From NCBI RefSeq assembly GCF_029893635.1, contig NZ_JARXYR010000002.1, forward strand, positions 2,641,001 through 2,705,000: 64,000 nt of DNA, written 5' to 3'. The position numbers were made by a program, and so were the translations under genes. Positions within the stretch are counted from its first letter, which is position 1, and the number at the start of each line of letters is the position of its first letter. Positions 44,591 to 50,087 of the stretch are shown piece by piece. Under the pieces are notes generated by a model. That model was not told where the DNA came from and did not search any database. It saw only the letters and a program-made list of their open reading frames with translations. The DNA is from Variovorax sp. TBS-050B (lineage in GTDB: Bacteria; Pseudomonadota; Gammaproteobacteria; Burkholderiales; Burkholderiaceae_C).

Positions 44591-44597
44591 CAGCCTG

Positions 44598-44645
44598 TGG
44601 TGCCCGGGGCCGGAATCGAACCGGCACACCTTTCGGTGGGGGATT
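44598..44645 (-). repeat. Left attachment-site copy: 3' fragment of tRNA-Leu
   Basis: These 48 bases are identical to 50003-50050, which form the CCA end, T arm, variable arm and part of the anticodon stem of the tRNA-Leu gene. Identity starts exactly at the CCA and stops at 44645 (T), with different bases on both sides. It is what a tRNA-targeting integrase leaves at the far end of an insertion. Confidence 0.9.
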
Positions 44646-44722
44646 AGCCCTCGCCGCGCGCCCAGTTCCAGATGCCACCCACCAAGTTGCAAGATTTGAG
44701 GAGGCACAAACTCGGATTGTTG

Positions 44723-44755
44723 ATCACACCCGTGATATTGCCGTCAACACGAGGG
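44723..44755. repeat. 33-bp island repeat, copy 1
   Basis: This matches 45527-45559 at 29 of 33 positions. It contains the dyad ATCAC-N4-GTGAT (44723-44736). It lies upstream of the exported protein gene at 44876. On the minus strand both copies can encode P-R-V-x-G-N-I-T-G-V-I. Confidence 0.6.
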
Positions 44756-44875
44756 AAGATTGCCCATGCCGCTGCGAGGGCGCCGCGCACTTGGCCGGTG
44801 AGCACGCCCTCGCGGGTTTGTTACTTTTTTGTTACCCTCGGAGTGAGCGCCGTTCGCGCTTGGAGGAGGGGTGTG

Positions 44876-45379
44876 ATGAAGTCAGTACTTGTGGCGGCGA
44901 CGCTTTTCGCTAGTGTCGCCCATGCCCAGACAGCGATCGGGCCTTGGTACGTCTCGGACATGAACGATGGCGCCGGCAGCTTTGTCGGCACGATCAATGA
45001 CAGCGGCGGTATGTTTGGGAAGTATTGCTATGTCAACTCGCAATCGTGCGTGTGGATGATGACGGCGGACGTGGGCTGTGAAGCTGGCTCCGAGTACCCG
45101 GTGCTCTTGAACTCTGACAGTGGCGCGGCCCTGGTCACCGTATCGTGCAAGCCCATTGACGGAAAGAATCGCTACTTTTTCAATAGCTACACAGACGTGG
45201 ATGATGCTGTGGCGCGCAGTTCGCGTATTGGATTCGCCTTTCCAATGGAGAGCGGTCAATTCCGCGTCACACGGTTTGATATTCGACAATCGACAGCCGC
45301 TATGAAAGCGCTAGAAACCAGGATGCGTAAACGCCCAGAGCGGCCCGGGCGGCCGGCGACCCGGGATACAACCCTCTAG
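44876..45379 (+). CDS. Exported protein of unknown function
   Basis: This 167-residue protein has a Sec signal peptide (KSVLVAATLFASVAHAQ, cleavage near residue 18). The mature part is rich in Gly/Ser/Asp and has four Cys (KYCYVNSQSCVW, ADVGCEAG, VSCKPID), which could form disulfides in the periplasm. The C-terminus is basic. The ATG at 44876 is supported by GGAGGAGGGG just before. I do not recognise the family. It is the first gene inside the left island end and its base composition is less G/C-rich than the flanking chromosome. Confidence 0.72.
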   Translation: MKSVLVAATLFASVAHAQTAIGPWYVSDMNDGAGSFVGTINDSGGMFGKYCYVNSQSCVWMMTADVGCEAGSEYPVLLNSDSGAALVTVSCKPIDGKNRYFFNSYTDVDDAVARSSRIGFAFPMESGQFRVTRFDIRQSTAAMKALETRMRKRPERPGRPATRDTTL

Positions 45380-45526
45380 GTGTCTTCTTTCTTCTCGGCC
45401 TGATTGGACGAGCCGTTCCCGAGCACTTCATCCCAGAAGCCTGAAAGACTGGAAAGCACCGAAGCCGCTTCTTGGAGCGCTGTGCGTCGCTCAGGCGATG
45501 AGTCGTCGATTGTTATGTTCGAATCA

Positions 45527-45559
45527 ATCACACCGGTGATGTTGCCACCAACACGAGGG
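45527..45559. repeat. 33-bp island repeat, copy 2
   Basis: This is the partner of 44723-44755. Its dyad is ATCAC-ACCG-GTGAT (one base different in the spacer). It lies 54 bases upstream of the small lipoprotein gene at 45613. The 150 bases before it (45380-45526) hold no convincing gene on the plus strand; on the minus strand an open frame without start codon ends in a TAG at about 45379. Confidence 0.6.
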
Positions 45560-45612
45560 CGGGGCGACCAAAGCGCGCTACGATCCCGAACACAACACCG
45601 GAGGGATTGGAG

Positions 45613-45996
45613 ATGCTTAGGTTGATGATCAGCGCAGCCTTGTGTGCTGCGCTAGCAGGGTGCGGAACCGCGCCCACAACAGCAACAAATGCTGAGTCAT
45701 TCAAAAGGGTTCAGGACGGGCGCTATCGAGCGTCTGAACAGCCTTTGTTCGTAGACTGCGTGTTCGATGGCTTCCTGGGCGCCCAGAGCATGGCGATGGC
45801 CACGCATGTGCGCCAGACCAAACGAGCGAACGGGTATCGCATCGACGTAATTGCCCAAGCCTTTCAGTACATCGTGGCTGACATCAGAGATGACGGGACC
45901 TATGAGCTTCGCCGCTCGAAGTACTCAGAAGCCCTGCCGTTCGACAAAGAGATCAACGCGTCGGAGGCTTGCCTGAAGCAGTTCGCTGCACAGTAG
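45613..45996 (+). CDS. Small lipoprotein of unknown function
   Basis: This 127-residue protein has a lipoprotein signal peptide: MLRLMISAALCAALAGC with Cys17 in the lipobox LAGC. The mature part includes a second Cys near VDCVFDGFLG and a third near SEACLKQF. It is therefore probably membrane-anchored in the envelope. GAGGG lies 7 bases before the ATG; a TTG at 45607 is a less likely start. No family is recognised. Confidence 0.68.
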   Translation: MLRLMISAALCAALAGCGTAPTTATNAESFKRVQDGRYRASEQPLFVDCVFDGFLGAQSMAMATHVRQTKRANGYRIDVIAQAFQYIVADIRDDGTYELRRSKYSEALPFDKEINASEACLKQFAAQ

Positions 45997-46420
45997 CTCG
46001 GTAAGCGTCCGGCCATCCCACCTTGAATTGGTCATCGACAGCCGGCAAGAACGGCTGATGTCGTTGCAAGGTTGAGCGCACATAAGCGCCATCACGTTGC
46101 TCAGATGAACCAGTCCCCATACGCTCGTAGCCCTGACATATTTTTGCTTGGTCGCTGCGAGAGAGATGCGGACCAAGAAGTGCCCCATCAGGTGACCGAC
46201 ATGCAGCAACTTCGTTCCTCTATGGCTCAGGTCGTCGACATCTGTTGCATAGGCACCGGTGTACTGCCAACCTTTGTCTCGGCGCCGCCCTCTCCCGGTA
46301 CTACCGACTGACAGACCCATTGATGTGGCTGCAAGTAGCGCTTGGTTGATCACTTGTTGACACATCACGAGCGAAAATCCCGTGTTCAAGCTTTCCGGTG
46401 TTTCGCGCTAGAACGCGCGA
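45997..46420. other. Island stretch without a convincing gene
   Basis: This stretch has weak open frames on both strands. The longest is on the minus strand (to about 46389), which overlaps the end of the lipoprotein gene, has no ribosome binding site I can see and shows no recognisable domain. It is best treated as decayed DNA. Confidence 0.5.
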
Positions 46421-47026
46421 ATGCCTCCGTCTCGCTCTCGACGCTACCCGTTGTTCCTTCGTTTACTCAGGCCCATCGATCCCCTCTACCCGGGCGCAGT
46501 GACGCCGGTCGCCTGGGAGGACGACTGCGCGCTCGAGGAGGCGAGTGGCGTGGTTTACATCGACACTCGCCAGTGCGCCCAGATGCGAGCCTGGGCGCGG
46601 CAGTTGCGCAAGCTGCACGCTTCTGACGAGACGTACAAGACGGAGAAGGGGCTGAGTCCCTTGAGCGCCGCGCCTCTTCGTGAGGCAAGCCTACGCGCGC
46701 TCGGAACAAGCCGCGATCTGTACTCCGAGGGCGGGCAAGAGGTGCGATCGGGCCGGCTAGCTGTGCGAGGCTACATCACCACTGATCTGCTCGCCGTCGT
46801 GACGGATCGGGTTAACGGCGATGCGGTCGGCTCCTATCCTTCTCGCTGGGGTGGATCGTCGATGCCGCGACGCGCCGCGGATACGGATGCCAGACTGCTT
46901 GCCGATCGCGCGCAGCGCACCGAAGAACAGCGCCGCTCCGCCGCAATAGCCCAGGAGGCCACTGATGCTCAAACCCGAATCGCTTCCCTCGAAGATGATC
47001 TGCGCCAGCGCTGCTGGCGCTGCTAA
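46421..47026 (+). CDS. Hypothetical open frame leading into a phage Rz-like remnant
   Basis: This 201-codon frame starts with an Arg-rich segment (PPSRSRRYPLFLRLLRP) and contains GVVYIDTRQCAQMRAWARQL, which I do not recognise. Its last 50 residues (TDARLLADRAQRTEEQRRSA and onward) look like the coiled-coil part of an Rz-type spanin. The frame therefore probably joins unrelated pieces. It is weakly supported as a real gene. Confidence 0.3.
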   Translation: MPPSRSRRYPLFLRLLRPIDPLYPGAVTPVAWEDDCALEEASGVVYIDTRQCAQMRAWARQLRKLHASDETYKTEKGLSPLSAAPLREASLRALGTSRDLYSEGGQEVRSGRLAVRGYITTDLLAVVTDRVNGDAVGSYPSRWGGSSMPRRAADTDARLLADRAQRTEEQRRSAAIAQEATDAQTRIASLEDDLRQRCWRC

Positions 47027-47276
47027 CAGCCTGCGCGCAGCGGCCGCCGGTGCCGCCGGTCGAGCCCGCGCGCGTGCCTGCGCTCCCGCCCCAAGCTCGG
47101 GCCAGCCTAGTGGCGACCCCGTTGGGCTGCTCGTTGACGTGCTCGGCAGGGCTGACAAACGAGCGGGAGAGTTGGCGGAATACGCTGACCGGCTCCGCAT
47201 TGCCAGCGTCGCCTGCGAGCGCTCCTACGACGGGCTGACCAAGTCTGATGGAGGCTCCTGGCCAAACCTACGGTAA
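46862..47276 (+). pseudogene. Rz-like phage spanin gene, broken by a frameshift
   Basis: An Rz-type coiled-coil (LLADRAQRTEEQRRSAAIAQ) is read in one frame up to about 46976. The typical C-terminal part of betaproteobacterial phage Rz proteins (VLGRADKRAGELAEYADRLR, then VACERSYDGL) is in another frame and ends at 47276. Between them lie misaligned bases (about 46976-47010). It would have been the inner-membrane spanin of a prophage lysis cassette. The end overlaps the convergent glycosyltransferase gene. Confidence 0.5.
46999..47238 (+). pseudogene. Rz1-like lipoprotein frame nested in the Rz remnant
   Basis: In the third frame the sequence reads LLALLTACAQRPPVPPVEP, a lipobox (LTAC) followed by the Pro-rich stretch typical of Rz1 outer-membrane spanins, then TCSAGLTNERESWRNTL to a stop at 47238. 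A TGA at 46996 and the lack of a good start codon show it is damaged. Nesting inside Rz in a different frame is how Rz1 is normally encoded. Confidence 0.5.
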
Positions 47277-48535
47277 CTGTCCATCTCCAACTTCCCCAAG
47301 TTGGACTCGATGGAGTTGGTGACCGACCAGAACAAGGCGTCCTTTGCCGGAGTGCCACCCGTCAGGTGCAACATGCTTGTTGGGATGGCTACCCGCCTGA
47401 GTTGCGGCATGGAGAAAAAGGCTTTCGCCAGCGCCGCCTGATCCAGATGCCAAAGCATGCGCGCGGGAATCGCGCGTGTGATGTGCTCTTGTAGTCTTCC
47501 GGCGAACGCTCGGCCTCCTTCAGTCGGAGCGACTACCAACAGAGTGGCGCTGATCGTCGATAGCGCATTAAATTCAGAACCCGGAAAGCGGAGGACAGCA
47601 ACATCGCCTTGCCTGGCTAAAGCCAGGAGCGGTGCGGGGTCGCGCATGACCAACTGATCCATATCGACCACTACAACAGGTCCCGCAGCCCGATCTAAAA
47701 GCTCCGGGAGGAGAAGATAGCGGGCGCACGAGTAGTAGGTTTTCCGTTCGATAATCTGCAAGCATTCCAGATCGACATGCTCTGTTGAGATCGTCACACC
47801 CGGCTTGCGGCGAAGCTCTTCCGCTAAGGCTGAGGCGGCTTCGTCTGGATTGATGACGTGAAGATGCAGCGCTCCGCGTCGCTCCGTGGATCGAGCAACG
47901 GAGCCCACGACTTCACGCGCGTACCTGCAGAAGTACACGCTGTCCGCTGCAGCGAAGAAAGTAGGTCCGTGCTCCGGGCCAACGATCTCGGGGAGGGCGG
48001 AGATCTTCCGAACTGGTGCAACTCCACCCGCGCAATCACTGAGGAGGACGCGTGTGTAAGTTGGTTGGCCCATGCCTGTCGCAACCGGCACGTCACGCTT
48101 AAAGAGTGCATCCGCCTCTTCAACTTTCCCCTGAGCCAACAGAACGCTGCCGAGGGCATACGCAACCCATGGGTTGTTCGATTGACAGAAATCGGCAAGG
48201 CGCAGCCACTCCTCGGCCCAGTGCAACTGGCCCTTTGCGCATTCCACGACCCCCTTACAGATTAGAACCTCAATCGAGACCTTCCCGTCGGGGGTGGACA
48301 ACGCCATCGTGATTGGAATGTCCCCCTTCACGGCCAGACCCTGGTCGCAGTACATCTCTGCGAGGTGCAGCCAGCGCTGCGAGGTGGGGTGTAGGAATGC
48401 CGCGAGATGTAGAGCGTTGGCGGCGCTACTCAGGCGACCTCGCGCGATGTGCTCTTTCGATTTGACTGTTAACCGGTCTGCCGCGCGAACACGCCAATGC
48501 GGTTTGTTGCCTCGTTCATTTGCTTGTCCGAGCAT
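47225..48535 (-). CDS. TPR-containing GT-A-type glycosyltransferase
   Basis: This 436-residue protein has an N-terminal helical half (about residues 25-160) with TPR-like helices (HIARGRLSSAANALHLAAFL, VAYALGSVLLAQGKVEEADALF). The C-terminal half (about 190-430) resembles a GT8-like GT-A glycosyltransferase: PVVVVDMDQLVMRDPAPLL contains an Asp-Met-Asp metal-binding motif, followed by LRFPGSEFN and LWHLDQAALAKAF. No signal peptide or membrane segment is obvious. It is the largest intact gene in the island and overlaps the tail of the Rz remnant. Acceptor unknown. Confidence 0.7.
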   Translation of the reverse strand: MLGQANERGNKPHWRVRAADRLTVKSKEHIARGRLSSAANALHLAAFLHPTSQRWLHLAEMYCDQGLAVKGDIPITMALSTPDGKVSIEVLICKGVVECAKGQLHWAEEWLRLADFCQSNNPWVAYALGSVLLAQGKVEEADALFKRDVPVATGMGQPTYTRVLLSDCAGGVAPVRKISALPEIVGPEHGPTFFAAADSVYFCRYAREVVGSVARSTERRGALHLHVINPDEAASALAEELRRKPGVTISTEHVDLECLQIIERKTYYSCARYLLLPELLDRAAGPVVVVDMDQLVMRDPAPLLALARQGDVAVLRFPGSEFNALSTISATLLVVAPTEGGRAFAGRLQEHITRAIPARMLWHLDQAALAKAFFSMPQLRRVAIPTSMLHLTGGTPAKDALFWSVTNSIESNLGKLEMDSYRRFGQEPPSDLVSPS

Positions 48536-48875
48536 GCTGTCCCCTAATTGTTACTGACGGCAACTATCGGCAAACATTCGAGTTCCGTCAACCGCATGCT
48601 TCAAGCGCTGATCTCGCGGCTACTCATCGGCCTCCGCGCCGCTGCTTCCGCCACTCCCAAGGCGGCACCGGCTCGGCGTCGCGCCAAAGCCCGACGCGAG
48701 TCAAGTGCTGCGGCGATCCTGACGGCGTGTCGATCGAGGGCGATACGAGGCCTCTTTCCGTCCGAGACAGCATCGATTGCGAGACCGCGGCCCGCCGCGC
48801 GAGGGCGGCGTCGAGGTCGTTGGCGTCAAGTCTCACATCACCGCTCGAACACGCGTGGCCCAGGATCGCCGGCCG
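48536..48875. other. Island stretch without a convincing gene; possible XRE-type fragment
   Basis: This 340-base gap has no intact gene. On the minus strand at 48836-48624 a 70-codon frame contains LARRAAVSQSMLSRTERGL, which looks like the recognition helix of an XRE-type DNA-binding domain, but the rest of the domain is missing and the start would be GTG. It may be a regulator remnant. Confidence 0.4.
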
Positions 48876-49466
48876 TCACAGATTCGCGTTCTTCTTCGAC
48901 GACAGCGACTGGAGGCATGCGTCGATGTTTCGTAGCTCGTAGGTCAGGCCGATCGTGAAATTTCCGGAGTTCACGGCGACAGCTTGTACTTTGATCGACC
49001 CCACGTCTCCTCCTTCCGAGGCGGGGATCTCCCAGAACGCTGCCAACGTCCTCTCCTTTCGTGCCAAGCCCATCGTCCAGTCGCGGGGCTCGCTCCAGAT
49101 ACTCCCCACTCGCAGAAAGTCGAACTTCTTCGGCGCTCCGTACTTGCTGGTCAAGGCCTCTTGCCAGCGCTTGAAGTCTGCTTGGACCTCATCACCGTAG
49201 ACGCTCGTCTTCTTGTTCGGCGTCCAGGCGTTGATTTTGCATAGGCCTTCACCGGGCGCGATGACGAGCCAATAGGAGTCGAGGTCTTGGTGCCCTTGGG
49301 GCAGCGACCCGGCAATATAGAGGCCCGGCTGCGTGCCTTGCTTAAGAGGCGCCAGTTTGCCGATCGCTTCGGCGGTATCGCCTTGGTTGAGCCCGAATGG
49401 GCCAGCCGCAGCAGCCATCGCAGACGACGCCGTGGCAACGGCCACGAGAATTTGAATTGCCCTCAT
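48876..49466 (-). CDS. Exported protein of unknown function
   Basis: This 196-residue protein has a Sec signal peptide (RAIQILVAVATASSAMAAAA). The mature part begins with GPFGLNQGDTAEAIGKL and continues with GEGLCKINAWTPNKK and QADFKRWQEALTSKYGAPKKF; the end (AVNSGNFTIGLTYELRNID) looks like a beta strand. Proteins with a periplasmic KWQ-helix and a following strand of this type are common but unnamed. Preceded by GAGAGAGGG before ATG at 49466. Confidence 0.7.
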   Translation of the reverse strand: MRAIQILVAVATASSAMAAAAGPFGLNQGDTAEAIGKLAPLKQGTQPGLYIAGSLPQGHQDLDSYWLVIAPGEGLCKINAWTPNKKTSVYGDEVQADFKRWQEALTSKYGAPKKFDFLRVGSIWSEPRDWTMGLARKERTLAAFWEIPASEGGDVGSIKVQAVAVNSGNFTIGLTYELRNIDACLQSLSSKKNANL

Positions 49467-49610
49467 CCCTCTCTCCTCAAAGCCGTCATGGCCGAAATTC
49501 GTTTGTTTTCTCGGACTTGGCGATTCGCCTCCGAGTCCGCAGTGGTCATGCTGGTCGGCCGTTCCGATCAGCGTGCCGGCATGTTATTTTGATTCGTTTC
49601 GCGCCCGAGC

Positions 49611-49832
49611 CTACATCACCGCTCGGACATGCGTGTAGTCGGTCCCGGACTTGCCGACGCAGAGCTTGTTCCAGTCCGCCGGTTTTGAGCTGCTCACGGT
49701 GTCACTGACGCCGTAGTGCTCGGTCCGGTCGTTGAAGGAGTTGCGAGCCCGGTACTTGTAGCAGATCACCTTGTCCGGCAGGGGCGACACCGGGGGCTCT
49801 TCGCTGTTTGGTAAGTGCTCAGTCGCAGTCAC
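49611..49832 (-). CDS. Small protein of unknown function
   Basis: This 73-residue frame starts with GTG at 49832 and lacks a clear signal peptide in the frame shown. It contains two Cys (VICYKYRARNS, NKLCVGKSG). It could be the tail of a longer decayed exported protein. Support is limited to the open frame, its codon pattern and its orientation. Confidence 0.4.
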   Translation of the reverse strand: MTATEHLPNSEEPPVSPLPDKVICYKYRARNSFNDRTEHYGVSDTVSSSKPADWNKLCVGKSGTDYTHVRAVM

Positions 49833-50002
49833 GGTGCTGCGAAAACGATCCGCGTCGTGCCAGTACTCAGATACCGCCTAAGTCAGGAAGGCAATTGAAT
49901 GGCTGCTCTGGGCTGCGGCGAAATGCGGAACGGCCTGCGGAAACGATGCGGAACGTCTGCGGCGATGTTGGCATCACTATCGCTGAATACGACGACAGCG
50001 CA

Positions 50003-50050
50003 TGGTGCCCGGGGCCGGAATCGAACCGGCACACCTTTCGGTGGGGGATT
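50003..50050 (-). repeat. Right attachment-site copy inside tRNA-Leu
   Basis: This is the intact-gene partner of the 44598-44645 fragment. The island lies on its 3' side, as expected when an integrase rebuilds the tRNA on insertion. Confidence 0.88.
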
Positions 50051-50087
50051 TTGAGTCCCCTGCGTCTACCAATTTCACCACCCGGGC
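50003..50087 (-). tRNA. tRNA-Leu (anticodon CAA), with encoded CCA
   Basis: On the minus strand the 85-base gene starts GCCCGGG at 50087 and ends CCCGGGCACCA at 50003. The acceptor stem is 7 perfect pairs. The anticodon loop CTCAAAA between GGGGA and TCCCC gives CAA (reads UUG). A long variable arm (class II) precedes the T arm GCCGGTTCGATTCCGGC. Its 3' 48 bases are repeated at 44598. Confidence 0.97.

Follow-up and report, generated by a model that had tools for sequence, protein, structure and literature searches.

A 5.4-kb element at the tRNA-Leu(CAA) gene of Variovorax sp. TBS-050B as the probable remnant of a prophage with an AP1-type integrase

Introduction

In Variovorax sp. TBS-050B (NCBI RefSeq assembly GCF_029893635.1), part of a transfer RNA (tRNA) gene, tRNA-Leu(CAA), is present in two copies 5.4 kb apart, which raises the question of what brought the DNA between them to this place, and whether it can still move. 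The stretch analyzed (contig NZ_JARXYR010000002.1, positions 2,641,001 to 2,705,000 of the forward strand; 64,000 nucleotides, hereafter the window) carries this 5.4-kb element between an epimerase gene and cysM, with the intact tRNA gene on the cysM side. An earlier note, made from the sequence alone, had described it as an integrase-mediated insertion that is either fossilised or mobilised in trans. Here, we conclude that the element is very probably a decayed prophage inserted at tRNA-Leu(CAA), of a lineage whose integrase is of the type encoded by Acidovorax phage AP1 (AP1-type). Grounded (cryptic) prophages are defective prophages that have lost genes and persist as sets of leftover genes; in principle, the element does not differ from them.

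Results

The repeat search of the window returned 44591-44645 and 49996-50050 as the full repeat pair, of which 44598-44645 and 50003-50050 are identical over 48 bp. The latter copy belongs to the only tRNA gene of the window, tRNA-Leu(CAA), located by ARAGORN at 50003-50087 on the minus strand. The exact 48-bp duplication that the earlier note had reported is confirmed, and a direct repeat of the tRNA 3' end flanks the inserted DNA on both sides, with the insert on the 3' side of the tRNA. When the whole 5.54-Mb genome was searched with the tRNA, five matches were obtained: both window copies and three shorter ones (27-45 bp, 87-93%), which sit in tRNA-Leu(TAA) and tRNA-Leu(TAG) genes, and no additional copy of the 48 bases was found anywhere in the genome. 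The composition of the element also differs from that of its flanks, as had been claimed. The content of guanine and cytosine (GC) is 0.601 in the interior and 0.687 in the rest of the window, and the interior lies below all 240 other 5,357-bp window stretches sampled, the minimum among which is 0.647. Third-position GC is 0.65-0.85 in five open reading frames (ORFs) of the element versus 0.88-0.95 in six neighbouring genes.

An insertion at this tRNA predicts empty sites with a single tRNA copy, and these exist in several Variovorax relatives. With cysM as bait, we obtained 80 named loci (the best 80 of 572, some of them short); 46 of these contained a tRNA-Leu match as well as the epimerase gene. 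The gap between epimerase and cysM was below 400 bp in 17 of the 46, while the remaining 29 had gaps of 0.6-8.8 kb without a second full tRNA copy. In the empty sites, 141-272 bp with one tRNA copy separate the epimerase gene from cysM, e.g., 265 bp in Variovorax sp. OK212 (L068; L and G numbers are our handles for loci and genomes), 269 bp in sp. 679 (L070), 150 bp in Root318D1 (L072) and 141 bp in J22G73 (L075). The joined window flanks align to these four loci across the entire tRNA, and in L068 and L070 the alignment extends over most of the intergenic DNA to the left of the tRNA. Neither the element interior (E <= 1e-3) nor an AP1-type integrase (E <= 1e-10) had any match in the 80 named cysM loci.

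At the same tRNA, 4 of 101 genomes of the genus (G005, G020, G028 and G049) carry elements of 43-64 kb between two copies. Each of these encodes an AP1-type integrase, and in each the epimerase gene adjoins the attachment (att) copy away from cysM. A fifth genome, G034, has an element with a broken AP1-type integrase at this tRNA. In a protein search at E <= 1e-40, AP1-type integrases were found in these 5 of the 101 genomes only, in all five within the element at this tRNA and with the integrase-side att copy next to the epimerase gene (5/5); in the window's own genome (G000) the same search found none. This search was used in place of PF00589, which misses AP1-type integrases, and for that reason the lack of PF00589 matches in the elements of G005, G020, G028, G034 and G049 is uninformative. 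The integrases of G028 and AP1 match a PHROG integrase family, not PF00589.

Phage AP1 (OM049504), a free phage record, has the 48-bp core at 94% identity, 0.1 kb from its integrase gene, and its integrase is 48-51% identical to the four intact Variovorax integrases, but its DNA similarity to the window element is limited to the core. An intact prophage at tRNA-Leu(CAA), PMC12_pp_4 of Variovorax sp. PMC12 (61,184 bp), is listed in Table 2 of a published survey; it shares the tRNA and the att with the window element, its printed att being 59 bp long and ending ...TTTTGAGTCCC (PMC9658991). Judging from agreeing coordinates, PMC12_pp_4 appears to be the G049 prophage, which resembles the window element in its orientation, in a triplet of putative integrase-binding sites with the same 12/11 spacing, and in an integrase gene that contains the scrap described below. 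In contrast to this intact 61-kb prophage, the 5.4-kb window element has no recognised structural genes, no integrase and no integrase-side arm. The G034 element is comparable in having two tRNA copies 4,863 bp apart, a degraded integrase of the same type and the integrase-side arm pair, but these 4.9 kb contain other cargo, retain more of the integrase and have no tRNA-side triplet. Among phage and plasmid records, none covers 80% of the window element, and 5 and 4 records, respectively, share short pieces with it. Literature searches for phage AP1 by name and for a Variovorax tRNA-Leu genomic island found nothing.

The window element retains a scrap of such an integrase gene. Positions 44645-44674 match the middle of the gene in G020 (30/30 bp, L172:2809-2838), G049 (28/28) and G028 (26/28). 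In these relatives, 701-703 bases lie between the end of the 48-bp block and the point equivalent to the scrap; thus, approximately 0.70 kb has been deleted here, and the 48-bp limit is the end of the deletion. When aligned, the att block is 57 bp long in G005, G020, G028, G034, G049 and AP1, with 3 substitutions in G020 and AP1. The limit at 44645, where the repeat described in the earlier note ends, is therefore a later deletion junction and not the recombination boundary, the block of the relatives being about 57 bp. The same note had stated that no integrase is present, which holds for a working gene but overlooks the scrap. As nothing but this 30-bp scrap, and no working integrase gene, adjoins the epimerase-side att copy, we class the element as a remnant and not as a working element.

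A further trace lies on the other side, next to the tRNA. Three direct repeats of GCGGAA start at 49925, 49937 and 49948, the last one 55 bp from the tRNA, and their 12/11 spacing is shared with G005, G020, G028 and G049. The exact spaced triplet occurs in 6 of the 101 genomes (G000, G005, G020, G024, G028 and G049), in all six beside this tRNA. With one mismatch allowed, four further matches appear, one of them at this tRNA (G033) and three elsewhere. All five relatives with an AP1-type integrase also have two inverted copies of this site between the core and the integrase gene, 45 bp apart; this pair is missing from the window, where of the two arms only the tRNA-side triplet is kept. From their position and conservation, the GCGGAA sites probably bind the integrase as arm sites. 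We also observed that the exact triplet of G024 (G024:C2:1489847-1489875) and the one-mismatch triplet of G033 (G033:C2:619883-619911) lie beside tRNA-Leu(CAA) in genomes that have no AP1-type integrase; perhaps these are sites in a still more advanced state of decay. Together with the empty sites, the intact prophages with their integrase and the core of AP1, the conserved arm-type sites support the integrase-mediated insertion on the 3' side of the tRNA that the earlier note had proposed.

The features of the element, from the epimerase side to the cysM side, are as follows (aa, amino acids; att copies are labelled attR-like and attL-like by position).

44598-44645, minus strand: attR-like att copy, far from the tRNA gene; comprises 48 bp of the tRNA-Leu 3' half and is cut short by the deletion at 44645; exact repeat
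44645-44674, minus strand: scrap of an AP1-type tyrosine integrase gene, about 10 codons, reads IWNWARGEG; identity to the integrase genes of relatives
44723-44755, minus strand: 33-bp phage motif, copy a
44876-45379, plus strand: ORF A, 167 aa, predicted exported (signal-peptide-like start, by eye); no family match at E < 0.05
45527-45559, minus strand: 33-bp phage motif, copy b, 88% identical to copy a
45613-45996, plus strand: ORF B, 127 aa, lipoprotein-like (by eye); relatives 32-56% identical elsewhere in genomes of the genus
46421-46865, plus strand: GNAT-like gene, truncated, first ~143 of 258 codons; aa identity to relatives
46866-46868, no strand: major deletion point, early-side gene fused to lysis-side gene; ends of DNA matches
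46868-47240, plus strand: Rz/i-spanin (DUF2514) remnant without 5' end, frame broken; phrog_312 and PF10721
47225-48535, minus strand: intact ORF, 436 aa, TPR and nucleotide-diphospho-sugar-transferase-like protein (cargo)
48624-48836, minus strand: helix-turn-helix fragment; match below the Pfam cut-off
48876-49466, minus strand: ORF E, 196 aa, predicted exported (by eye); 51-57% aa identity to L153 and L165
49611-49832, minus strand: ORF F, 73 aa; 71% aa identity to L157
49925-49953, plus strand: surviving attachment arm, three GCGGAA direct repeats with spacing of 12 and 11 bp
50003-50087, minus strand: intact tRNA-Leu(CAA) with restored 3' half, the tRNA-side att (attL-like); ARAGORN

The first half of this map, which runs from the att copy and the integrase scrap through the two motif copies with ORFs A and B to the start of the GNAT-like gene, ends abruptly. 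The GNAT-like fragment is 57-72% identical in aa to a gene in L146, L147, L151, L153 and L154, with pieces in L155 and L156; the 258-aa gene is whole in L146 and L147, and its intact form has a weak match to PF00583, below the cut-off. DNA matches to four early-side loci stop at 46864-46867 (those to three others stop earlier), and matches to three Rz loci start at 46868-46898. The Rz gene is a single open frame in L149, L150, L152 and L169, but is split over two frames in the window. In the G028 prophage, whose end toward cysM is L169, Rz has the same orientation and lies on the same side of the tRNA as in the window, which indicates that the junction at 46866 joins the integrase side to the lysis side. 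The phage body between the two sides appears to have been lost at about 46866.

To the right of the junction follow the 436-aa gene, the helix-turn-helix piece, ORFs E and F, and the arm. The 436-aa protein has 18 relatives besides itself, 33-56% identical, one of which (P0009) carries PF03407; its TPR models score below the cut-off. The family is small, with 19 members including itself among 7,998 scored candidates. The G005 and G049 prophages share 20 aa of the helix-turn-helix fragment, at their ends toward cysM. For ORFs A, B, E and F, the protein-family libraries gave weak matches below the cut-off or none. No capsid, tail, terminase or replication gene was found when nine element ORFs were compared with Pfam and ten with PHROGs, and weak matches aside, the Rz-like spanin/DUF2514 was the sole phage family in these scans.

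Discussion

We propose that a temperate phage with an AP1-type tyrosine integrase would have recombined site-specifically into the 3' half of tRNA-Leu(CAA). Its phage attachment site (attP) would have carried about 57 bp of the tRNA, so that the tRNA gene facing cysM remained whole while a duplicate of its 3' half came to lie toward the epimerase gene. Subsequently, a deletion of about 0.70 kb, from this att copy to the middle of the integrase gene, would have taken away 9 bp of the core together with the arm sites on the integrase side, and the loss of the phage middle at about 46866 would have fused the accessory region of the integrase side to the lysis-side region. All that is left would be a few accessory genes, the arm next to the tRNA and an Rz gene that is no longer intact. 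What the DNA shows directly is the repeat and the empty site, the scrap of the integrase gene, the arm sites with their spacing, and genes that are truncated or have a broken frame, whereas the order of events and a parent close to the prophages of G005, G020, G028 and G049 are what we infer. Judged by these losses, the element is most likely immobile today.

Several observations weigh against this explanation. No structural phage gene was found in the element, and its parentage rests on the att, the scrap, the arm and Rz; beyond these, little of the interior DNA matches the ends of the four intact prophages, and the search that covered their middles scored two candidates per genome, which under-counts pieces located elsewhere. 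Genes similar to the accessory genes are located elsewhere in the genomes of relatives, which is what a recombinant parent, or repeated insertion, could produce, and the presence of the 33-bp motif in two copies of 88% identity is a hint that two phages contributed. With regard to the arm sites, the stretch of AP1 examined around the core has no GCGGAA sites, and the broken G034 element lacks the triplet. Moreover, TGCGGAA occurs 13 times in the window versus about 7 expected, and with up to one mismatch a reversed control pattern matches 29 of the 101 genomes, compared with 10 for the triplet pattern. Because of these counts, single sites and one-mismatch matches carry little weight, and the evidential weight rests on the exact spaced triplet at this tRNA.

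A history of one prophage is the simplest, and two successive insertions are possible. The alternative that two or more insertions at this tRNA each left pieces behind seems unlikely to us, although it deserves attention. The motif copies stand 0.8 kb apart, each by a different accessory gene, and at the G005 locus an extra tRNA-like copy lies beside the integrase gene (ARAGORN, L160:8802-8884); the DNA outside this extra copy is like the tRNA-side arm of the window, a sign of tandem insertion there. However, the analysis of the window yielded no more than two tRNA copies and a single integrase scrap, and one recombinant prophage explains the same facts equally well. That the element is a satellite or an integrase-less island moved in trans by the integrase of another phage would account for both att copies and the tRNA-side triplet being kept without a working integrase. 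Nevertheless, we regard it as quite improbable. A satellite would have complete att sites, but the core copy here is truncated to 48 of about 57 bp and the integrase-side inverted pair is absent, so that even a superinfecting phage of the same type would need to act without this arm. Furthermore, the scrap shows that the element formerly had an integrase of its own, while no such integrase was found in G000, and the breakage of the GNAT-like and Rz genes at one junction fits decay and not the design of a satellite. Thus, of the two fates offered by the earlier note, mobilisation in trans is not supported, given that the arm and part of the core are deleted and that no AP1-type integrase was found in the genome, while fossilisation is supported and agrees with the loss of the integrase-side arm, part of the core and the integrase body.

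Another family of elements uses the same tRNA gene in G041 and G057 and leaves the same 48-50 bp of the 3' half at its far end. Its integrase (450 aa) belongs to PF00589, and the family cuts the tRNA in the anticodon loop and brings a replacement gene, but in the window the tRNA is intact and the scrap is of an AP1-type integrase, invisible to PF00589; we therefore consider an origin from this family highly improbable. Fragments of tRNA-Leu also occur elsewhere in these genomes, as a local duplication without any mobile element would have it, but such a duplication would leave the empty sites, the foreign DNA of low GC, the integrase scrap, the arm sites and the phage gene unexplained, and its probability is negligible.

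As a cryptic prophage that occupies a tRNA gene, the element is of a known kind, and an intact relative has been published (PMC9658991). Grounded prophages are the subject of PMC6379469. New are this member and the integrase scrap plus arm triplet as a footprint. Intact prophages (G005, G020, G028 and G049), the broken G034 element and the window element, and perhaps also the sites of G024 and G033, form a decay series at one att site. From this series, it seems that a founder phage can be traced through arm-type sites and a 30-bp integrase scrap even when almost all else is lost. It also follows that the length of a repeat taken from one genome can mark the end of a deletion, not the recombination core. 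It is doubtful whether the host keeps the accessory genes (the 436-aa protein and the exported A, B and E), which stayed open while phage genes broke; if it does, the site would be a landing pad, where phages would bring in cargo that modifies the cell surface and would afterwards be reduced to that cargo.

Additional Observations

The by-product of this analysis may be of more interest than the window element itself. G041, G057 and a Polaromonas locus (L137) each have a host tRNA-Leu(CAA) gene severed within the anticodon loop and, not far from it, a further tRNA-Leu(CAA) gene that contains an intron. Such intron-bearing replacement elements were located as follows.

L167:2700-3275 (G041)
L168:3000-3570 (G057)
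L137:9350-9970
L181-L191

In L181 (the G041 copy), the intron is 237 nucleotides long, and splicing in silico yields a sequence that reads as tRNA-Leu(caa). The intron is placed within the anticodon loop, which also holds the att core; our guess is that it disrupts the att site of the replacement gene and in this way would bar re-insertion. Against the group I model of Rfam, it scored 18.7 of 50 bits (E 0.031), well under the cut-off, and no match reached the curated threshold. An alignment of the intron from 15 relatives folds with 60 pairs, 18 of which have changes on both sides in at least one sequence, and the intron is here called group-I-like. Related intron DNA was found at E <= 1e-10 in 48 of 399 genomes of the family, and 96-100% identical copies occur at nine loci in seven genera. 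Of the 30 loci fetched, 8 have the severed half of the host gene about 220 bp upstream of its replacement. Among the papers listed by literature searches, for part of which titles and the openings of abstracts were covered, no report of an intron-bearing replacement-tRNA element was seen.

Related introns are also present across the family in genes that, judged by eye, are ordinary tRNA-Leu(UAA) genes (L192-L200, L202, L203 and L205-L210), the exons of which read GGGACTT / AAAATCCC; the native gene of L195 was likewise read by eye as tRNA-Leu(UAA). The introns of these genes are a likely source of the intron in the replacement genes.

The 30-33-bp motif (TCGTGTTGAYGGCAATATCACGGGTGTGAT), two copies of which are present in the window, occurs with at most 3 mismatches in 8 of the 101 genomes of the genus, including this one, and exactly in 5 stretches of IMG/VR. 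In 8 of 12 other loci, an ORF begins 26-138 bp after the motif start; in L212 and L213, an open frame spans the motif, and in L176 and L215, none of the nine ORFs listed starts nearby. We considered the motif as the coding end of a tail protein, and dropped this since it precedes the starts of differing ORFs in those eight loci. Possibly, it is a promoter or operator.

Several prophage-like loci (L146, L147, L151, L153, L175 and L176) are not at tRNA-Leu(CAA), yet carry pieces of it of 22-54 bp (the T-arm and more). In 6 of 7 genus loci with the motif, tRNA pieces lie 0.3-1.6 kb from it in the same orientation; these may be old att scars, terminator hairpins or something else. Finally, in three loci of Polaromonas and a Burkholderiales metagenome-assembled genome (L133, L136 and L142), one or two copies of the tRNA-Leu 3' end, 28-31 bp long and about 100-200 bp apart, are located 3' of the tRNA.

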